Shown here in pieces: positions 11,194 through 21,889 of a stretch of 64,000 bases of DNA (its first letter is position 1; each line of letters begins with the position of its first letter). Where the stretch lies: the NCBI RefSeq assembly GCF_001522585.2, contig NZ_CP013373.1:2108001-2172000 (forward strand). Reading direction: 5' to 3'. A model generated the notes under the pieces. It made no database searches and had not been told where the DNA came from. It was given only the letters and a program-made list of their open reading frames with translations. The stretch is from Burkholderia sp. NRF60-BP8. Its GTDB lineage: Bacteria > Pseudomonadota > Gammaproteobacteria > Burkholderiales > Burkholderiaceae. Both the position numbers and the translations under genes were made by a program.

Positions 11194-12678
11194 TTACGCC
11201 TTCGCGCTTGCAAGCAGCCGGTAGAACCCGAAGCCGAGCCCCGCGCCGATGAACCACGAGAAATTCGCGACGCCCTGCCAGCCCGGCACCATCACGCACA
11301 CGACCGCGATCACCGCGGCCGGCAGCAGCGCGGCGAGCGCGCGGCGGTTCACGCCGCCCGTGTACCAGTACGCGCCGCTTTCCGACATCGTGTACAGGTC
11401 GTCGCGCACGAGGCGGCCGCGCTTGACGAGGTAGAAGTCGGCGATCAGCACGCCGTACAGCGGGCCGATGAACGCGCCGAGCACGTCGAGCGTGTAATGG
11501 ATCACCGCCGGGTTGTTGAACAGGTTCCACGGCGTGATGAAGATCGACGCGACGGCGGCGAGCATCCCGCCCGCGCGCCAGCTGATCAGGCGCGGCGCGA
11601 CGTTCGAGAAATCGAACGCGGGCGACACGAAGTTCGCGACGATGTTGATGCCGATCGTCGCGATCGTGAACGTCAGCGCGCCGAGGATCACCGCGGTCGG
11701 ATGGTCGATGCGGCCGACCGTCTCGACCGGGTCGGTGATCAGTTCGCCGAACACCGGCAGCGTCGCGGCGGTGGTGATCACCGTGACGAGCGAGAACGCG
11801 AGGAAGTTGACGGGCAGCCCCCAGAAATTGCCGCGCTTCACGTCGCCGAACGAGCGGCAGTAGCGCGAGAAGTCGCCGAAGTTGAGCATCGGCCCGGAGA
11901 AGTACGACACGACGAGCGACACGGCGGTGATCATCACCGGAATCACTTCCGCGCCGTGATACTTGACGCCGCCGAGGTTGATGCCGATGTTGCGCCAGCC
12001 CGCGCGCCACACCATGTAGCCGGCCAGGATGAACATCACGACATAGACGGCCGGGCCCGCGAAGTCGATGAACTTCTTGATCGTCTCCATCCCGTTCCAG
12101 AACACGAACGCCTGGAGCACCCACAGCAGCATGAAGCCGGCCCAGCCGACCGCCGACAGCCCGAGGAAGCCGTAGCGATGGACGTCCGCATACGGCAGCC
12201 ACTGCGGAAAGAATTTCAGCACGACGATCACGAGCGCGCTCGACGCGAGATAGGTCTGGATGCCGTACCACGCGATCGCGATCAGCCCCCGGATCACGGC
12301 CGGCACGTTCGCGCCGAGCACGCCGAAGGTCGCGCGGCACGCGACCGGATACGGCACGCCGATCTGCTGGCTCGGCCGCGCGATGAGGTTGCACAGCGCG
12401 TTCACGAGACCGATGCCGACGATCAGCGCGATCAGCACCTGCCAGCTCGTCAGTCCGAGCGCGAACAGGCTGCCCGCGAACACGTAGCCGCCGACGCTGT
12501 GCACGTCCGACATCCAGAACGCGAAGATGTTGTACGCGCCCCATGTCTGATTTTTAAGGGGTGCCAAATCTTCGTTGTACAGACGTTCGCTGTAACCGTC
12601 CGGCAATGCCGGACCGCCGCCCTCGCCGCCTTCTTCCGCCGGATAGGCGCTGTCGTGCGCCACACTGAATTGAGCCAT
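11194..12678 (-). CDS. NCS1-family nucleobase/allantoin/hydantoin transporter
   Basis: The ATG at 12678 has AAGGAG eight bases upstream and gives 494 residues with about twelve hydrophobic segments. NCS1 hallmarks are the N-terminal NEDLAPLKNQTWGAYNIFAFWMSDVHS region (around TM1, cytosine/allantoin permease pattern), the RPSQQIGVPYPV loop and the late IADFYLVKRGRL motif. These proteins import purines, pyrimidines, allantoin or hydantoins with Na+ or H+. Position directly before the racemase and allantoin genes favours allantoin or a related ureide. Confidence 0.9.
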   Translation of the reverse strand: MAQFSVAHDSAYPAEEGGEGGGPALPDGYSERLYNEDLAPLKNQTWGAYNIFAFWMSDVHSVGGYVFAGSLFALGLTSWQVLIALIVGIGLVNALCNLIARPSQQIGVPYPVACRATFGVLGANVPAVIRGLIAIAWYGIQTYLASSALVIVVLKFFPQWLPYADVHRYGFLGLSAVGWAGFMLLWVLQAFVFWNGMETIKKFIDFAGPAVYVVMFILAGYMVWRAGWRNIGINLGGVKYHGAEVIPVMITAVSLVVSYFSGPMLNFGDFSRYCRSFGDVKRGNFWGLPVNFLAFSLVTVITTAATLPVFGELITDPVETVGRIDHPTAVILGALTFTIATIGINIVANFVSPAFDFSNVAPRLISWRAGGMLAAVASIFITPWNLFNNPAVIHYTLDVLGAFIGPLYGVLIADFYLVKRGRLVRDDLYTMSESGAYWYTGGVNRRALAALLPAAVIAVVCVMVPGWQGVANFSWFIGAGLGFGFYRLLASAKA

Positions 12679-12827
12679 GACTTCTCCTTGACGCGGCCGG
12701 CAGGCCGCTCCACCGTCATCGATATCGCTCCGGATCGTCGCCCGGAGTCGGACCAGCGGCCCTCGGCAAACACCGCGGGCCTGCATTGCTCTCGTCGTGT
12801 GGCGCGCGGCCGGGTTCGCGTCGCCGC

Positions 12828-13532
12828 TCAGGCGCCGCCGAACACTTCGCGCAAATCGACCTGCCCTTGCGCGGGCCGGTCCAGCATCTTCAGTTCGACA
12901 TGCTGCAGGTGGCGCGCCATCAGCGTCACCGCCTGCTTCGGATCGCCCGCCTCCAGTGCGGCGAGGATCTCGTCGTGGTCGTCGCACGAGCACGGGCTGC
13001 GCCCGTGCGATTCGTACAGCGCCGACATCAGCGTCGAGCGTGCGACGAGCCCTTCGAGGCACTCGCTGAGCGTCGCATTGCCCATCAGCGTCGCGAGCGC
13101 CGTATGGAATTCGCCCGACAGCCGGATCCACGCCGCGAAGTCGTGCCGCTCGAACGCCTTGCGTTCCTTGTCGATCAGCGCCGCGACGCCCTTCAGCCGC
13201 TTGGCGCCGGGGCCGGTCGCGAGCCGCTCGACCACGGCCAGCTCGATGATCCGGCGCATCTCGAACACTTCGTGCACGTCCTGCAGCGACGGGCTCGCGA
13301 CGAACGCGCCGCGGTTCGGCTCGAGGTCGACCAGTTTGTCGGTCGCGAGCTGCGCGAGCGCCTGGCGGATCGTCCCGCGCTTCACGCCGAACACGTCGCA
13401 GAGCTGCGCCTCCGTCAGCTTCGCGCCGGGCGCGAGCCGATGCTCGAGGATCGCGGTGCGGATGCGCTCGGCGATCGCTTCGGGACCGGCTGCGCCGGAC
13501 GGATGGGAATCGGGCTCGTTCATGATCTGCAT
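12828..13532 (-). CDS. GntR-family regulator, FadR/FCD type
   Basis: A 234-residue protein. An N-terminal winged helix-turn-helix (residues about 14-85, with KLTEAQLCDVFGVKRGTIRQAL) is followed by an all-helical FCD effector domain containing the Asp/His metal-binding pattern (HDFAAWIRLSGEFHTAL and HDEILAALEAGD). It precedes the transporter gene by 149 bases in the same direction. Its promoter overlaps operator-like sites, which suggests autorepression, with the allantoin/transport operon as likely target. An alternative ATG lies three codons in, at 13523. Confidence 0.9.
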   Translation of the reverse strand: MQIMNEPDSHPSGAAGPEAIAERIRTAILEHRLAPGAKLTEAQLCDVFGVKRGTIRQALAQLATDKLVDLEPNRGAFVASPSLQDVHEVFEMRRIIELAVVERLATGPGAKRLKGVAALIDKERKAFERHDFAAWIRLSGEFHTALATLMGNATLSECLEGLVARSTLMSALYESHGRSPCSCDDHDEILAALEAGDPKQAVTLMARHLQHVELKMLDRPAQGQVDLREVFGGA

Positions 13533-16180: not shown

Positions 16181-17416
16181 TTACGCCGCTACCGTTTCCG
16201 GCCGCGCTTTCGCGAACGGCCGGAACATCGTCGCGATCAGGAACGCGCCGACTCCGATCGCGAACGATCCGAGGTACAGCCAGCCGTAGCTGCCGAGCGC
16301 GTCGACGATCAGCCCGCCCGCGACCGGGCCCGCGGCCATCCCGAGGCTGCCGGCCATCGCGCAGCCGCCGATCACGGTGCCCATCATCCGCAGCGGGAAA
16401 TTCTCGCGCGCGAGCACCGAATAGAGCGGCATCACGCCCGCATAGACGAAACCGAACAGCGTCGCGACCGCGTAGAAGCCGTCGAGCGAGCGCACGAAGT
16501 AATAGCCGAGCGCGCCGAACGCCTGCGCGAGCAATCCCGCCGCCAGCATGCGCTTCGCGCCGAGGCGATCGCCGAGTATCCCGAACGCGATCCGGCCGCC
16601 CATGCCCGCGAGCCCTTCCACGCTGTAGATCGACACCGCGACGATCAGCGGAATCCCGCAGGTCACCGCGTAGCTGACCGTGTGGAAGATCGGGCCCGAA
16701 TGCGTCGCGCAGCAGAAGAAATTGGTCAGCAGCAATACCGCGAACTGCGGCGAGCGCAGCGCATCCGCGACCGACATCGCGGCGGGCGCGCCGGCGGACG
16801 CTGGCGCGGGCGCCGCGTGCGCGGCTGCAGCGTCGAGCGCCGGCGCCCGGCGCACCAGCAGCGACACCGGAATCATCACGACGGCCGCCAGCACGGCAAT
16901 CAGCAGCATCGACGTGCGCCAGTCGCGCACCGACACGAGCCATGCGGCGAGCGGCGCCATCGTCATCGGCGCCATCCCCATGCCGGCCGACACGAGCGAT
17001 ACCGCGAGGCTGCGGTGCGTGTCGAACCAGCCGGTCACGCACGCCATCATCGGCGCGAATATCGCGGCTGTCGCGCTGCCGACGGCCAGCCCGAAGCTCA
17101 GCTGGAACACGAGCAGCGACGGCGCGCGGCTCGCGAGCGCCAGGCTCGCCGACAGCAGCACGGCGCCCGCGACGACGACCGGCCGCGTGCCGACGCGGTC
17201 CGACAGGCTGCCCCACGCCATGCTCGCAAACGCCATCGCGATGAAGCCGAGCGTCATCGCGGCGGAAATGCCGGTCATCGACCAGCCCGTCTCGCGCGCG
17301 ATGGAGCGCAGGAACACCGGCAACGAAAACATCGCGCCGATCGCGACGCAGCCCATCAGGCCGCCCGCGGCGACGATCACCCAGCGGTATCGGGAATCCG
17401 GCATGTGGCGTGTCAT
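16181..17416 (-). CDS. Major facilitator superfamily transporter (oxalate/formate antiporter-like)
   Basis: The ATG at 17416 follows a strong GAGGAGA and gives 411 residues with about twelve hydrophobic segments. The MFS signature is visible after TM2 (WGSLSDRVGTRPVVV) and again in the second half (GRIAFGILGDRLGAKRML). The overall pattern resembles the monocarboxylate/oxalate-formate group. It is divergent from the HutC-type regulator and the flavoprotein-ferredoxin genes, so it probably moves the substrate or product of that system; the substrate is unknown. Confidence 0.85.
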   Translation of the reverse strand: MTRHMPDSRYRWVIVAAGGLMGCVAIGAMFSLPVFLRSIARETGWSMTGISAAMTLGFIAMAFASMAWGSLSDRVGTRPVVVAGAVLLSASLALASRAPSLLVFQLSFGLAVGSATAAIFAPMMACVTGWFDTHRSLAVSLVSAGMGMAPMTMAPLAAWLVSVRDWRTSMLLIAVLAAVVMIPVSLLVRRAPALDAAAAHAAPAPASAGAPAAMSVADALRSPQFAVLLLTNFFCCATHSGPIFHTVSYAVTCGIPLIVAVSIYSVEGLAGMGGRIAFGILGDRLGAKRMLAAGLLAQAFGALGYYFVRSLDGFYAVATLFGFVYAGVMPLYSVLARENFPLRMMGTVIGGCAMAGSLGMAAGPVAGGLIVDALGSYGWLYLGSFAIGVGAFLIATMFRPFAKARPETVAA

Positions 17417-17556
17417 CGGGTATCTCCTCGTTCGTTGCGCCATTCGCGGCAACCGGGTGTCCGCTGCATGGCGCGGCGCGCGGCCCGGTCGTTATCGATA
17501 CGACGGACGACGCATCGGGAAATCGACATGCGCGGCGCATGATCTGCGGATTTTTT

Positions 17557-17662: not shown

Positions 17663-17713
17663 TTGGGGCGCGCACGTGCGCTGGCTACACTCGCCCCATC
17701 TTGTCATAACAAG
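17663..17713 (+). promoter_or_regulatory. Promoter and operator-like site of the HutC-type GntR operon
   Basis: TTGGGG (17663-17668), 17 bases and TACACT (17686-17691) make a plausible promoter. Nine bases past the -10 box, CTTGT-CATA-ACAAG (17700-17713) is a 5-bp inverted repeat covering the expected start point and ending seven bases before the GntR ATG. This is the position expected for autoregulation. Confidence 0.55.
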
Positions 17714-17720
17714 TCGACCG

Positions 17721-18491
17721 ATGACGCCACCCAACGTCGTGCCGCTGTCCGCGGCCCCGCTCTACGTGCAGATCAAGGACACGCTGCGCGCGCGCATTCT
17801 CGACGGCACCTATGCGCCGCACAGCCGGATGCCGTCCGAGCACGAACTCTGCGCGACGTTCGACGTCAGCCGCATCACGGTGCGCCAGGCGCTCGGCGAC
17901 CTGCAGAAGGAAGGTCTGCTGTTCAAGCTGCACGGCAAGGGCACGTTCGTGTCGAAGCCGAAGGCCTTCCAGAACGTGACGTCGCTGCAGGGGTTCGCGG
18001 AGGCGATGTCGTCGATGGGCTACGAGATCGTCAACCAGTTGCGCAGCCTGCGCACCGTGAAGGCCGATCGCCATCTCGCGACGAAGCTGAACGTGCCCGA
18101 AGGCGCACCGCTCGTCGAGATCCATCGCGTGCGGCTGCTGAACCGCGAACCCGTGTCGCTCGAACAGACCTGGGTGCCCGAGGCGCTCGGCAAGCGCCTC
18201 GCCGGCGCCGATCTCGCGACCCGCGACATCTTCCTGATCCTGGAGAACGACTGCGGCATTGCGCTCGGTCATGCCGACGTGTCGATCGACGCGATCCTCG
18301 CCGACGACGAAATCGTCGACGCGCTGCACGTCGAGGAAAGCAGCCCCGTGCTGCGTATCGAGCGTCTCACGCACGATGCGTCCGGTGCGCCGATCGACTA
18401 CGAAACCCTCTACTTCCGCGGCGACGCCTTCCAGTACCGGCTGCGCGTCGACCGGCAGAAGGCACGCAAACCTGCAAGGAACCCGCGATGA
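17721..18491 (+). CDS. GntR-family regulator, HutC/UTRA type
   Basis: A 256-residue protein. The N-terminal winged helix-turn-helix spans residues about 11-80 (PLYVQIKDTLRARILDG, MPSEHELCATFDVSRITVRQAL, GKGTFV). A C-terminal UTRA ligand domain with the EIHRVRLLNREPVSLEQTWVP strand pattern covers about 95-245. Its stop overlaps the flavoprotein ATG by four bases (ATGA), so it is the first gene of that operon and presumably senses its substrate. Confidence 0.92.
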   Translation: MTPPNVVPLSAAPLYVQIKDTLRARILDGTYAPHSRMPSEHELCATFDVSRITVRQALGDLQKEGLLFKLHGKGTFVSKPKAFQNVTSLQGFAEAMSSMGYEIVNQLRSLRTVKADRHLATKLNVPEGAPLVEIHRVRLLNREPVSLEQTWVPEALGKRLAGADLATRDIFLILENDCGIALGHADVSIDAILADDEIVDALHVEESSPVLRIERLTHDASGAPIDYETLYFRGDAFQYRLRVDRQKARKPARNPR

Positions 18492-20227
18492 ATACCCATG
18501 TGCACGAATACGACGTCGTCGTGGTCGGCGGCGGCACGGCCGGCCCGATGGCCGCCATCAAGGCGAAGGAGCGCGATCCGTCCCTGCGCGTGCTGCTGCT
18601 CGAGAAGGCCCACGTGAAACGCAGCGGCGCGATCTCGATGGGGATGGACGGCCTGAACAACGCGGTGATCCCCGGTCATGCGACGCCCGAGCAGTACACG
18701 CGCGAGATCACGATCGCCAACGACGGGATCGTCGACCAGGAAGCCGTATACGCGTACGCCGCGCACAGCTTCACGACGATCGAGCAGCTCGATCGCTGGG
18801 GCGTGAAGTTCGAGAAGGACGGCACCGGCGACTACGCGGTGAAGAAGGTCCATCACATGGGCTCGTACGTGCTGCCGATGCCGGAGGGCCACGACATCAA
18901 GAAGGTGCTGTACCGGCAACTGAAGCGCGCACGCATCGCGATCACGAACCGGATCGTCGCGACGCGCGTGCTGACCGACGCGCAGGGCCGCGCGAGCGGC
19001 GTGCTCGGCTTCGACTGCCGCACCGCCGAATTCCACGTGATCCGCGCGAAGGCCGTGATCCTCTGCTGCGGCGCGGCCGGCCGCCTCGGTCTGCCGGCAT
19101 CGGGCTACCTGATGGGCACGTACGAGAACCCGACCAACGCGGGCGACGGCTACGCGATGGCCTATCACGCGGGCGCGGCGCTCGCGAACCTCGAATGCTT
19201 CCAGATCAATCCGTTGATCAAGGATTACAACGGCCCGGCCTGCGCGTACGTGACCGGCCCGCTCGGCGGCTTCACCGCGAACGGCAAGGGCGAACGCTTC
19301 ATCGAATGCGACTACTGGAGCGGCCAGATGATGTGGGAGTTCTACCAGGAACTGCAGAGCGGCAACGGCCCCGTGTTCCTGAAGCTCGACCATCTCGCGG
19401 AAGAAACGATCCGGACCATCGAGCAGATCCTGCATACGAACGAACGGCCGAGCCGCGGCCGTTTCCATGCGGGGCGCGGCACCGACTACCGCAGCCAGAT
19501 GGTCGAGATGCACATCTCGGAGATCGGCTTCTGCAGCGGCCACAGCGCATCGGGCGTATATGTGAATGCGCGCGCGGAGACGACCGTGCCGGGGCTGTAC
19601 GCGGCCGGCGACATGGCGGCCGTTCCGCACAACTACATGCTCGGCGCATTCACGTACGGCTGGTTCGCCGGGCAAAATGCGGCCGACTACGCGGCCGGCC
19701 GCGAACACGCGCCGGTGGACGACCGACAGGTCGACGCCGAGCGTTCGCGCGTGCTCGCGCCGTTGCTGCGCGAGCGCGGCCTGGCGCCGGCGCAGGTCGA
19801 GTACAAGCTGCGCCGCATGGTGAACGACTATCTGCAACCGCCGAAGGTGACGCGCAAGATGGAAATCGGGCTGCAACGTTTTGACGAAATTACTGAGGAT
19901 ATCGAAGAAATCAAGGCCGATAACCCGCACGAACTGATGCGCGCGGCCGAAGTGCGCGCGATCCGCGACTGCGCGGAAATGGCCGCACGCGCGTCGCTGT
20001 TCCGCACCGAGAGCCGCTGGGGGTTGTACCACCATCGCGTCGATTTCCCGCACCGCAACGACGCCGAATGGTTCTGCCATACGTGGCTGCGCAAGGATGC
20101 CGCGGGCGCGATGCGCAGCGAGAAGCGGCCGGTCGAACCGTACGTCGTGCCGCTTGCCGACGACGAACGCGGCGCCTACGCGCAGTTGCGCATCCGCGAA
20201 CCGGCCGCCCTCGCGGCCGCTCTTTGA
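18488..20227 (+). CDS. FAD-dependent oxidoreductase, AprA/fumarate reductase flavoprotein-like
   Basis: A 579-residue flavoprotein of the succinate dehydrogenase/fumarate reductase/APS reductase alpha superfamily. The FAD-binding Rossmann motif VVVGGGTAGPMAA is at residues 11-23, the second FAD segment GLYAAGDMAAV near 370, and the C-terminal helical domain ends with an HHRVDFPHRND motif like that of the SdhA/AprA group. The next gene encodes an AprB-like ferredoxin, so the two probably form a heterodimer. No signal peptide is present, so it is cytoplasmic. The substrate is not recognisable: no neighbouring sulfate-activation gene is present, which argues against dissimilatory APS reductase itself. 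Confidence 0.85.
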   Translation: MNTHVHEYDVVVVGGGTAGPMAAIKAKERDPSLRVLLLEKAHVKRSGAISMGMDGLNNAVIPGHATPEQYTREITIANDGIVDQEAVYAYAAHSFTTIEQLDRWGVKFEKDGTGDYAVKKVHHMGSYVLPMPEGHDIKKVLYRQLKRARIAITNRIVATRVLTDAQGRASGVLGFDCRTAEFHVIRAKAVILCCGAAGRLGLPASGYLMGTYENPTNAGDGYAMAYHAGAALANLECFQINPLIKDYNGPACAYVTGPLGGFTANGKGERFIECDYWSGQMMWEFYQELQSGNGPVFLKLDHLAEETIRTIEQILHTNERPSRGRFHAGRGTDYRSQMVEMHISEIGFCSGHSASGVYVNARAETTVPGLYAAGDMAAVPHNYMLGAFTYGWFAGQNAADYAAGREHAPVDDRQVDAERSRVLAPLLRERGLAPAQVEYKLRRMVNDYLQPPKVTRKMEIGLQRFDEITEDIEEIKADNPHELMRAAEVRAIRDCAEMAARASLFRTESRWGLYHHRVDFPHRNDAEWFCHTWLRKDAAGAMRSEKRPVEPYVVPLADDERGAYAQLRIREPAALAAAL

Positions 20228-20238
20228 GGAACCTTGCC

Positions 20239-20484
20239 ATGCCCCATACCCCGCACGACATCTTCCAGCGCAGCAGCGCGCCCGTGACGATCGACGAGAC
20301 GCTGTGCATCGCCGACAAGGGCTGCACCGTCTGCGTCGACGTGTGCCCGCTCGACCTGCTCGCGATCGACGTCACCAAGGGCAAGGCGTACATGCAGTTC
20401 GACGAATGCTGGTACTGCATGCCGTGCGAACGCGACTGCCCGACCGGCGCGGTCAAGGTCGACATCCCTTACCTGCTGCGCTGA
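20239..20484 (+). CDS. Two-[4Fe-4S] ferredoxin, AprB-like
   Basis: An 81-residue ferredoxin beginning 11 bases after the flavoprotein stop, with GAGGAA as ribosome site. Two cluster motifs are visible: C23-x5-C29-x2-C32-x3-C36-Pro and C57-x2-C60-x2-C63-x3-C67-Pro. The DECWYC context, with Trp58 beside the second cluster, resembles the corresponding region of APS reductase beta subunits; it lacks their C-terminal wrapping tail. Likely role: electron transfer to or from the flavoprotein. Confidence 0.9.
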   Translation: MPHTPHDIFQRSSAPVTIDETLCIADKGCTVCVDVCPLDLLAIDVTKGKAYMQFDECWYCMPCERDCPTGAVKVDIPYLLR

Positions 20485-20618
20485 CACGGCGCGCCACCCG
20501 CATCGACGACAGTACGATCGAGCCGGCGTGCGTCGACATCGAGCGCTGCTGTCTCGCGCTGTTGCGCGACGCCGCCTGAGCGCGCGTACTGGCCCACTCA
20601 CCGCACCGACTTTTCGCC

Positions 20619-21614
20619 ATGACCGCTTCTTCCCCCGCTTTCCCGCTGCCCGGCATGCCGTCCGCCGATCATGCGGCGCTCGTCGCGCGCCTCGCCGCGG
20701 CCGATGCCTCGGTGCGCCGCGTCGCACTGCTCGAACTCGCCGATCTCGAGGCGCCCGAACTCGTGCCGTCGTTCGTCGCGGCGCTGCGCGACGACCCGTC
20801 GGCCGACGTGCGCAGCGAAGCCGCACGCGTGCTCGACGCGTGGGAGCAGCCCGATGTCGTCGACGCGCTGTGCCATGCGCTGCTCGATCCGGACGACGGC
20901 GTGCGCGCAACGGCCGCGCACAGCCTGTCCGAACTGAAGGACGCGGCATCGGGCGCCGTGCTGCGCCGCTGGGCCGACCGGCCCGAGCCGTTCGTGCGCA
21001 CCGCCGTGCTGCGCGGCCTGCGCGAATTGCGCGACCCCGACGCGTTCGCGCCCGCACTGCGCGCGCTCGACGCGAGCGCCGCCGCCGTACGCACGGAGGC
21101 GGTCGTCGTGCTCGGCTGGCTCAAGGACGGCCGCGCGCTGCCGCCGCTCGCCCGCGTCGCGACCGCGGACGCCGATGCCGACGTGCGGCGCGCCGCGGTC
21201 GGCGCGATCGGGTTTGCAGCGGCCGGCGATACCGCCGTCGTCACCGCGTTGCTCGCGGCGCTGCGCGACGTCGAATGGCAGGTGCGCGAGGAAGCGGCCG
21301 CCACGCTCGGCAAGCTGCGCGTCGCCGTTGCGCGCGACCCGCTCGTCGCCGCGCTCGACGACGATTACTGGCAAGTGCGCGTGCGCGCCGTCCGCGCGCT
21401 CGGCCAATTGCGCGATGCGGCCGCGGCACCGGCCGTCGTCGCGCTGCTCGCGCATGCGATCAGCAATCTGCGCAAGGAAGCCGCCCTCGCGCTCGGCGAA
21501 TTGCGCGACCGGGCGACGCTGCCCGCGCTGCACGACGCGCTCGACGATCGCGACCCCGAAGTCCGCAAGGCCGTGCGGATCGCGATCGGACAGATCGACG
21601 AGGCGTCGCGATGA
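20619..21614 (+). CDS. HEAT-repeat (PBS lyase-type) protein
   Basis: A 331-residue protein made almost wholly of about nine helical HEAT repeats of roughly 31 residues. Recurring elements include DVRSEAARVLDAW, GVRATAAHSLSEL, DVRRAAVGAIGFA, QVREEAAATLGKL, QVRVRAVRALGQL, NLRKEAALALGEL and EVRKAVRIAIGQI. Such proteins act as scaffolds or, in the CpcE/NblB group, in cofactor attachment. It lies between the ferredoxin and a DUF971 gene and overlaps the latter by four bases, so an assembly or docking role for the flavin/Fe-S pair is plausible but inferred. The 134-base gap before it has no recognised feature. Confidence 0.85.
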   Translation: MTASSPAFPLPGMPSADHAALVARLAAADASVRRVALLELADLEAPELVPSFVAALRDDPSADVRSEAARVLDAWEQPDVVDALCHALLDPDDGVRATAAHSLSELKDAASGAVLRRWADRPEPFVRTAVLRGLRELRDPDAFAPALRALDASAAAVRTEAVVVLGWLKDGRALPPLARVATADADADVRRAAVGAIGFAAAGDTAVVTALLAALRDVEWQVREEAAATLGKLRVAVARDPLVAALDDDYWQVRVRAVRALGQLRDAAAAPAVVALLAHAISNLRKEAALALGELRDRATLPALHDALDDRDPEVRKAVRIAIGQIDEASR

Positions 21615-21889
21615 TTACGCCGATCGAAATCGCACTCGATCGCCCGGCACGCGCACTGACGCTGTCCTGGCCTGACGGCTCGGCGCAACGCATCGACTTT
21701 GCGCGGTTGCGTAGCGATTGCCCGTGTGCGGAATGCCGCAAGATCCGGCTCGACGGCGGCCGCATCGACGCGCGGCCGGACCTGACGCTGGACGGCGTGG
21801 AACCGCTCGGCTACGGCGTACGCTTCCTGTTCGGCGACGGTCATGCACGCGGCATTTATCCGTGGCCGTACCTGGCGGAGATCGCGTAG
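21611..21889 (+). CDS. DUF971 (GBBH-like N-terminal domain) protein
   Basis: A 92-residue protein consisting only of the DUF971 domain, also found at the N-terminus of gamma-butyrobetaine hydroxylase and near Mrp-type Fe-S carriers. Zinc-site ligands by analogy with the hydroxylase are Cys37, Cys39 and Cys42 (DCPCAEC) and His78 (GDGHARG). The GIYPWPYL ending is typical. It overlaps the HEAT gene (ATGA), so the two are translationally coupled. Function unknown; a role with Fe-S proteins is inferred. Confidence 0.88.
   Translation: MITPIEIALDRPARALTLSWPDGSAQRIDFARLRSDCPCAECRKIRLDGGRIDARPDLTLDGVEPLGYGVRFLFGDGHARGIYPWPYLAEIA

Follow-up and report, generated by a model that had tools for sequence, protein, structure and literature searches.

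The described systems closest to the one considered here are the Asf proteins and the reductases acting on adenosine 5′-phosphosulfate (APS) and 3′-phosphoadenosine 5′-phosphosulfate (PAPS). The asf genes comprise a reductase/ferredoxin electron-transfer system, a binding protein, an ATP-binding cassette (ABC) transporter and a LysR regulator, and are needed for the use of aromatic sulfonates (PMC4267179); AsfA and AsfB of Cupriavidus metallidurans are given as Rmet_4334/5, on the second replicon (PMC2864759). The PAPS reductase of Methanothermococcus thermolithotrophicus has an architecture like that of dissimilatory APS reductase, according to PMC10322725. In a 64-kb stretch of the genome of Burkholderia sp. 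NRF60-BP8 (3 contigs, 7.08 Mb), hereafter the window, we analyzed a cluster of five genes coding for a GntR regulator, a flavin adenine dinucleotide (FAD) flavoprotein, a ferredoxin with two [4Fe-4S] motifs, a HEAT-repeat protein and a DUF971 protein. With somewhat better than even confidence, we propose that it specifies an inducible, ferredoxin-driven oxidoreductase for scavenging organosulfur compounds.

A preliminary description of this DNA had proposed these five genes and a divergent gene for a major facilitator superfamily (MFS) transporter; all are confirmed, and Pfam and NCBIfam agree with the family names (Table 1). The ATGA coupling claimed there is real at two junctions, GntR/flavoprotein and HEAT/DUF971; the close spacing does not extend to the ferredoxin–HEAT junction, where 134 bp hold the remnant of an ABC ATPase gene, and the start of the GntR gene is at 17721, not at 17663. 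The genes are clustered far beyond chance. Among the best 80 of at least 590 loci encoding relatives (the close loci, all from Burkholderiaceae, with flavoproteins 84–98% identical), the ferredoxin is present in 80, GntR in 79, HEAT in 79 and DUF971 in 76; the HEAT gap (L019) and three of the four DUF971 gaps (L019, L066 and L067) lie on contigs that end early, and in L077 the same search found neither GntR nor DUF971. Further afield we considered 32 of the 33 other family-bearing genomes (the survey loci; the partial G169 match, located at the end of a contig, was left out), nine annotated plasmid loci and a tenth locus of the plasmid collection, Acinetobacter L151. The ferredoxin is found in 32/32 survey and 9/9 plasmid loci, HEAT in 31/32 (the 32nd being cut by a contig end) and 8/9 (the ninth being fused), and DUF971 in 26/32 and 4/9, respectively; the Acinetobacter locus has GntR, flavoprotein, ferredoxin, an ABC trio and HEAT, with no DUF971 match. 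The HEAT and DUF971 genes thus co-occur with the flavoprotein gene in these neighborhoods, as the preliminary description had supposed, and the core of flavoprotein, ferredoxin and HEAT recurs across proteobacteria and cyanobacteria. All eight cysteines are kept in each of the 121 ferredoxin matches of relatives, and the CxCxxC motif in 100 of the 107 DUF971 matches. Family members scoring above the cut-off are encoded in 15 of 250 genomes at the order level and 21 of 398 at the phylum level (the source genome counted in both) and in none of 14 control genomes; the family is therefore widespread but accessory. At least 6520 of 7998 scored database proteins match the flavoprotein at an E-value of 1e-20 or better, a count that need not consist of family members throughout; the nearest relatives among the matches listed are from Burkholderia, including a protein of B. 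cenocepacia with 98% identity. We found no paper on the cluster when searching for literature on the gene set or on Asf, a search that covers subscription journals poorly and is thus no proof of absence, and the papers on Gordonia and Acinetobacter that were searched hold nothing on it. The earlier designation as an uncharacterized two-subunit oxidoreductase stands, no characterized member having been found.

Table 1. Features of the flavoprotein–ferredoxin locus (positions in the window)
Feature	Position	Strand	Basis or remark
MFS transporter, L-lactate/oxalate-formate type	16181..17452	−	MFS_1; best NCBIfam model SfMCT, 157 bits, under cut-off 320; divergent
Palindrome CTTGTCATAACAAG, predicted GntR operator	17700..17713	+	Directly 5′ of the GntR gene
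Candidate GntR target sequence CTTGTNATNACAAG			Predicted
HutC-type GntR/UTRA regulator, 256 aa	17721..18491	+	Pfam GntR 76 bits, UTRA 132 bits
FAD flavoprotein, AprA/FrdA superfamily, PRK08275, 579 aa	18488..20227	+	NF006131 1150.9 bits, cut-off 587
AprB-like ferredoxin, 81 aa, eight Cys, two [4Fe-4S] motifs	20239..20484	+	Fer4 domains
Remnant of a deleted ABC ATPase gene, its ~30 terminal codons plus stop	20487..20579	+	Alignment to the C-terminus of the B. cenocepacia NCTC13227 (L022) ATPase
HEAT-repeat protein, 331 aa	20619..21614	+	HEAT_2 169 bits; PRK13800 positions 593-894, 73.5 bits
DUF971 (GBBH-like_N) protein, 92 aa, C-P-C-A-E-C (CxCxxC)	21611..21889	+	PF06155 71 bits

The flavoprotein combines FAD_binding_2 and Succ_DH_flav_C domains and is by score a member of NF006131/PRK08275, a family named “fumarate reductase/succinate dehydrogenase flavoprotein subunit”. 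It falls below the cut-offs of the AprA model TIGR02061 (176.5 bits against 641.75) and the PAPS/APS reductase model PRK06854 (286.6 against 557), and far under those of the SdhA/FrdA and NadB models; its ferredoxin partner likewise reaches 38.3 bits with the AprB model TIGR02060, below a cut-off of 135.65. In the PDB, the best sequence match is to 8a8o, the PAPS reductase alpha subunit from M. thermolithotrophicus (E 3.6e-58). In a tree of 53 rows, obtained from 63 by removing 10 near-duplicate family rows, the family forms a single group (fork 87/92) that neighbors four AprA rows and a PAPSR-like row (92/79), with SdhA, NadB and a putative AsfA lying across the midpoint (97/95); its exact sister is unsure because several comparison branches are very long. 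The phylogenetic comparison proposed earlier thus places the flavoprotein outside the AprA, SdhA and NadB rows, and its identity to the four AprA rows is 25–27%. Of the 579 positions, 182 show no variation across 49 aligned sequences of the family; 48 of these hold polar or aromatic residues that neither the four AprA rows nor the PAPSR-like row share, suggesting a specific pocket for the substrate. A structure prediction made from 18 close sequences had a mean predicted local distance difference test score of 51, and no inference was drawn from it.

The substrate class is indicated by an importer that the window strain itself no longer has. Many relatives carry in the operon a complete ABC trio of binding protein, permease and ATPase: it is present in 31 close loci, where it lies between the ferredoxin and HEAT genes, in 30 survey loci, in 6 of the nine annotated plasmid loci and in Acinetobacter L151. 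The trio was detected in 18 of 20 operon loci, as against none of the 20 control stretches taken from these genomes, a comparison that, being made with reference proteins from such loci, measures linkage and not function. SsuA_fam (TIGR01728, cut-off 163.5) is the best model for all four binding proteins scanned, each scoring below the cut-off (113.2 bits for L103, 150.4 for L100, 115.3 for L102 and 117.6 for L022), and TauA and SsuA are closest to the one that was compared with solved structures. The best model for the relatives' ATPase is that of the taurine ATPase, and the permease is nearest to the SaoP, nitrate and SsuC models, all under the curated cut-offs. The resemblance to SsuABC and TauABC is thus one of best matches, whereas these scores and the length of the binding proteins (447–474 residues as against about 320) set the importer of the relatives apart from both.

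No ABC trio is present in the window operon. However, the gap between its ferredoxin and HEAT genes (20485–20618) can be aligned to the 3′ end of the B. cenocepacia NCTC13227 (L022) ATPase gene, and still reads IDDSTIEPACVDIERCCLALLRDAA-stop. Going by this remnant, the window strain has evidently lost the importer from its operon, the binding-protein and permease genes also being gone; there is no close copy of the NCTC13227 binding protein elsewhere in its genome, the best match having 31% identity. The same gap in B. metallica (L012, 11994–12281) retains a 57-residue fragment from the start of the binding-protein gene. As the two scars differ, the losses look repeated, suggesting that the importer was shed more than once within Burkholderia; the ferredoxin–HEAT gaps of other Burkholderia measure 271 bp (L020), 162 bp (L016), 119 bp (L023) and, in several, 35 bp. 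The MFS transporter, which the preliminary description took for the cluster's importer, is not a fixed partner: its gene occurs in 16 of the 80 close loci, all from Burkholderia, and the usual importer of the relatives is the ABC transporter. By combination, the MFS gene occurs without the trio in 12 close loci (including L019, which ends before the trio region) and together with it in 4; a further 27 have only the trio, and the remaining 37 lack the two. Therefore, the MFS protein may replace the trio in Burkholderia but cannot do so as a general rule, and we rejected it as the general importer of the system.

The neighborhoods of more distant relatives also bear on the direction of electron flow. 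A gene of the ferredoxin-NADP reductase (FNR) type is found in 10 of the 32 survey loci (the one scanned scoring 134.7 bits with PRK10926, cut-off 390), FdxA is near the operon in 13, and a large NfnA/GltD-like protein, also present in Acidithiobacillus caldus, is encoded in 8; its best model is PRK06567 (606.6 bits, cut-off 1072), and we take it for an NAD(P)H-ferredoxin oxidoreductase. Six loci of one genus (L127–L131 and L134) have the FNR gene immediately 5′ of that for the flavoprotein, on the same strand. Such neighbors favor electron input, i.e., a reductase.

Sulfur-related genes are seen in some of the relatives. Among the close loci, FMN monooxygenases of the NtaA/DmoA type lie near 9, SfnB-like genes near 4 (one of them confirmed by a model) and a family 2A-type encapsulin shell near 9, and a cysteine-desulfurase cargo, a serine acetyltransferase and a rhodanese near 8. 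This encapsulin has been tied to sulfur metabolism (PMC8049743). Matches to the TauD family were found in 4 of 122 loci (L119 and L122, from the same genus, L049 and L145) and in none of the 20 control stretches, and among the survey loci one has a serine acetyltransferase and two a rhodanese. In L139 the operon is followed by a gene for an SBP_bac_11 binding protein, which we ourselves assign to the sulfate type. Together with the SsuA/TauA-like importer, these sulfur genes of some relatives back the “sulfonate-like” half of the substrate that the preliminary description had guessed. A sulfur island with the encapsulin, cysteine desulfurase, EpsC-type serine acetyltransferase and rhodanese is seen in eight loci, L034, L037, L038, L041, L043, L044, L049 and L083, from Paraburkholderia.

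The two remaining proteins were described earlier as dedicated partners of the flavoprotein. PRK13800 is a family in which the PRK08275-type flavoprotein is fused to a HEAT region, and the window HEAT protein matches its C-terminal third. In Tsukamurella, the sole actinobacterial locus examined, the two are indeed one protein of 893 residues (PRK13800, 1568 bits, cut-off 1196). Given this fusion, HEAT is likely a structural partner or subunit of the flavoprotein. The claim of dedicated partners needs refining in the case of DUF971: it accompanies most proteobacterial copies and was not found in some lineages, and in two cyanobacterial plasmid loci, in which we found no DUF971, a Mrp/NBP35 gene lies 3′ of HEAT instead. 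According to PMC7980591, HCF101 is a single protein that unites a Nbp35-type carrier with DUF971, and what its DUF971 does is termed elusive. The exchange of DUF971 and Mrp/NBP35 supports, without proving, a role in iron-sulfur insertion, and we infer that DUF971 may be a cluster-insertion factor.

As for regulation, the motif TTGTN4ACAA occurs once in the window, within CTTGTCATAACAAG (0.14 occurrences expected), but since 11 of 100 shuffled sequences contain it as well, this single instance carries little weight by itself. Among 101 loci with GntR adjoining the flavoprotein, however, 75 have the motif between 130 bp upstream of the GntR match and 20 bp inside it, with 0.006 expected per locus; of 12 loci inspected among those without it, 7 have a one-base variant. 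On account of this conservation, CTTGTCATAACAAG is probably the GntR operator. Across the loci of the relatives the regulators are of the GntR, Crp or LysR type.

We therefore consider the following route. A sulfonate-type compound would relieve repression by GntR and would be taken up by the ABC importer or, in the window strain and many Burkholderiaceae, by another carrier, perhaps the MFS protein in the case at hand. NADPH would reduce the ferredoxin via an FNR or another NAD(P)H-ferredoxin oxidoreductase, and the electrons would pass from the 8Fe ferredoxin to the FAD of the flavoprotein, which would attack the imported substrate and free its sulfur, probably as sulfite. HEAT would bind to the flavoprotein, and insertion of the iron-sulfur clusters into the ferredoxin would be aided by DUF971 or, in cyanobacteria, by Mrp/NBP35. 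We are fairly confident that the substrate class is sulfonate-type organosulfur and nearly as much so that the reaction runs in the reductive direction, while a direct sulfite-releasing chemistry of the FAD is a tentative proposal to which we give somewhat less than even credence. The fullest version is one that we consider rather unlikely as a whole: an oxygen-independent reductive desulfonase, or an enzyme cleaving S–N or S–S bonds, with low-potential electrons from the 8Fe ferredoxin, attack by N5 of the FAD to set sulfite free from imported sulfonate-type compounds, a HEAT subunit and DUF971 as insertion factor, forming a further functional branch of the AprA/FrdA superfamily that many genomes would list as fumarate reductase. 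If the sulfur-based interpretation is correct, it would add a widespread organosulfur route in soil, plant-associated and opportunistic bacteria, give DUF971 and the HEAT protein a testable job, and provide an apt counterpart with which to compare the AsfAB pair. The idea can be tested directly by way of the conserved palindrome, the importer and the fusion.

Several observations weigh against this proposal. There is no substrate, activity or phenotype on record, and we found no experiment on the cluster in the literature searched. None of the scanned binding proteins of the relatives reaches the SsuA cut-off; the window operon and 49 of the 80 close loci (one of which ends early) lack the trio, 37 of these 49 also being without the MFS gene, and the window MFS protein resembles lactate/oxalate carriers. 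FNR, FdxA and NfnA-like genes were found in none of the close loci. The sulfur-island loci are not independent, being mostly from one Paraburkholderia group, and FMN monooxygenase, SfnB, encapsulin and TauE genes were each found in none of the 32 survey loci. TauE/SafE is present in 3 of the 10 plasmid loci, these three also having supplied the query proteins, and was found in none of the 80 close loci. Finally, the active-site arginine of AprA is replaced by leucine in all 49 aligned members of the family, and APS chemistry is hence not to be assumed.

This last point brings in the alternatives, among which a true APS or PAPS reductase, acting in sulfate assimilation or sulfite oxidation, is the least probable, and we give it very little credence. 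In its favor, the PAPS reductase 8a8o is the closest of the solved structures, and the cluster is akin to AprAB and this enzyme in having an FAD subunit from the same branch of the superfamily and a small ferredoxin with two [4Fe-4S] clusters. We take Asn74, Trp234, Arg265 and His398, in the numbering of Archaeoglobus fulgidus AprA, to be active-site residues of that enzyme; in the alignment of 49 family members the positions of Asn74 and His398 have Asn and His throughout, whereas Arg265 is invariably Leu and Trp234 invariably Tyr. Gln145, a further residue, named in PMC10322725, is Val in all 49. These replacements and the scores below both reductase cut-offs led us to reject plain membership in the APS reductases; in addition, the beta subunit has 81 residues, HEAT and DUF971 are partners, and sulfate-activation genes are not found among the genes of the window operon. 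An oxidoreductase for carboxylates, of the kind implied by the database name, is also improbable, if less so. It is in keeping with the NCBIfam name and the two domains, with the lactate/oxalate-type MFS protein in Burkholderia and with a sister family (L154–L158, from other Burkholderiales) of 31–33% identity that scores about 340–350 bits with NF006131, below the cut-off. This sister family likewise pairs a flavoprotein with an AprB-like ferredoxin; in its one scanned locus, L158, the pair lies next to a tricarboxylate receptor of the TctC type and what looks by eye like a regulator of the AraC type, and four of its five genomes (G046, G090, G100 and G169) also have an AprA match over the cut-off. 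The residues of Escherichia coli SdhA used for comparison are the catalytic His242, Arg286 and Arg399, together with His354 and the histidine that binds FAD covalently. In all 49 members the columns of Arg286 and Arg399 are gaps, that of His242 is Asn and that of the FAD-binding histidine is Gly, while His354, the sole SdhA residue retained of those compared, is His in 48. Thus, the residues do not support the name fumarate reductase, as it implies catalytic residues that are missing from the 49 members compared; we rejected plain membership in the fumarate reductases/succinate dehydrogenases on these grounds and on that of the SdhA/FrdA scores. Moreover, the importer of the relatives is SsuA/TauA-like, and none of the five operon genes codes for a membrane anchor. 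The carboxylate half of the substrate guessed at earlier thus draws solely on the MFS family and this distant sister family.

A stronger contender, although still an unlikely one in our estimate, is that the flavoprotein and ferredoxin work like AsfAB, leaving the sulfur compound itself untouched and acting as electron donors for another enzyme, a monooxygenase such as SsuD or NtaA/DmoA, by which the sulfonate group is cleaved off. To compare the two, we placed AsfA on the second replicon of C. metallidurans, which has no PRK08275-type protein (the best match being 29% identical): taking the hopene cyclase gene at 722.8 kb as Rmet_4148 and adding 186 genes at an estimated ~1.1 kb each leads to ~929 kb, and a pair of flavoprotein and eight-cysteine ferredoxin genes (L111) lies at 927.9–929.9 kb, where Rmet_4334/5 is expected. 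This pair is probably AsfAB, the assignment being uncertain because there is a second hopene cyclase gene at 999 kb. Matches to an SsuA/TauA-like binding protein, permease and ATPase are found within a few kb of it, and no match to HEAT, DUF971, GntR or LysR in the surrounding 17 kb. The same two-part design with an importer alongside, and the FMN monooxygenases near 9 close loci, speak for an AsfAB-like mode of action. No such monooxygenase, however, is found in the other 71 close, the 10 plasmid or the 32 survey loci, and the many invariant and family-specific positions of the flavoprotein suggest a substrate pocket of its own. The putative AsfA is 23% identical to the window flavoprotein over 418 residues and groups, on a very long branch, with SdhA and NadB (97/95). 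Hence, the cluster resembles Asf in design, with flavoprotein and eight-cysteine ferredoxin side by side, but it is not AsfAB. The AsfAB pair works with an SsuA-like binding protein and ABC importer in sulfonate use (PMC4267179, PMC2864759); in the present family many relatives have an importer that scores below the SsuA model's cut-off, and the window strain no longer has it. The LysR regulator of asf (PMC4267179) is a further difference, and the window genome has no close AsfA, the best match being 27% identical over a short stretch.

Three further loci are of note. On a Nostoc edaphicum plasmid (L099, 8995–15150), genes for two HAD hydrolases, a methyltransferase, a GNAT protein and VOC/FosA-like proteins lie between those for the flavoprotein and the ferredoxin, hinting at a modified or conjugated substrate. 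A cyanobacterial LysR regulator (L104, 6661–8676) is extended at its C-terminus by a region with a weak match to NMT1_2; this region shares 33% identity over 235 residues with the operon binding protein of Acinetobacter L151, as if the regulator had a sensor copy built in. In the window itself, upstream of the cluster, the open reading frames at 11194–13532 on the reverse strand look by eye like a permease of the nucleobase/allantoin type and a GntR regulator of the FadR type.

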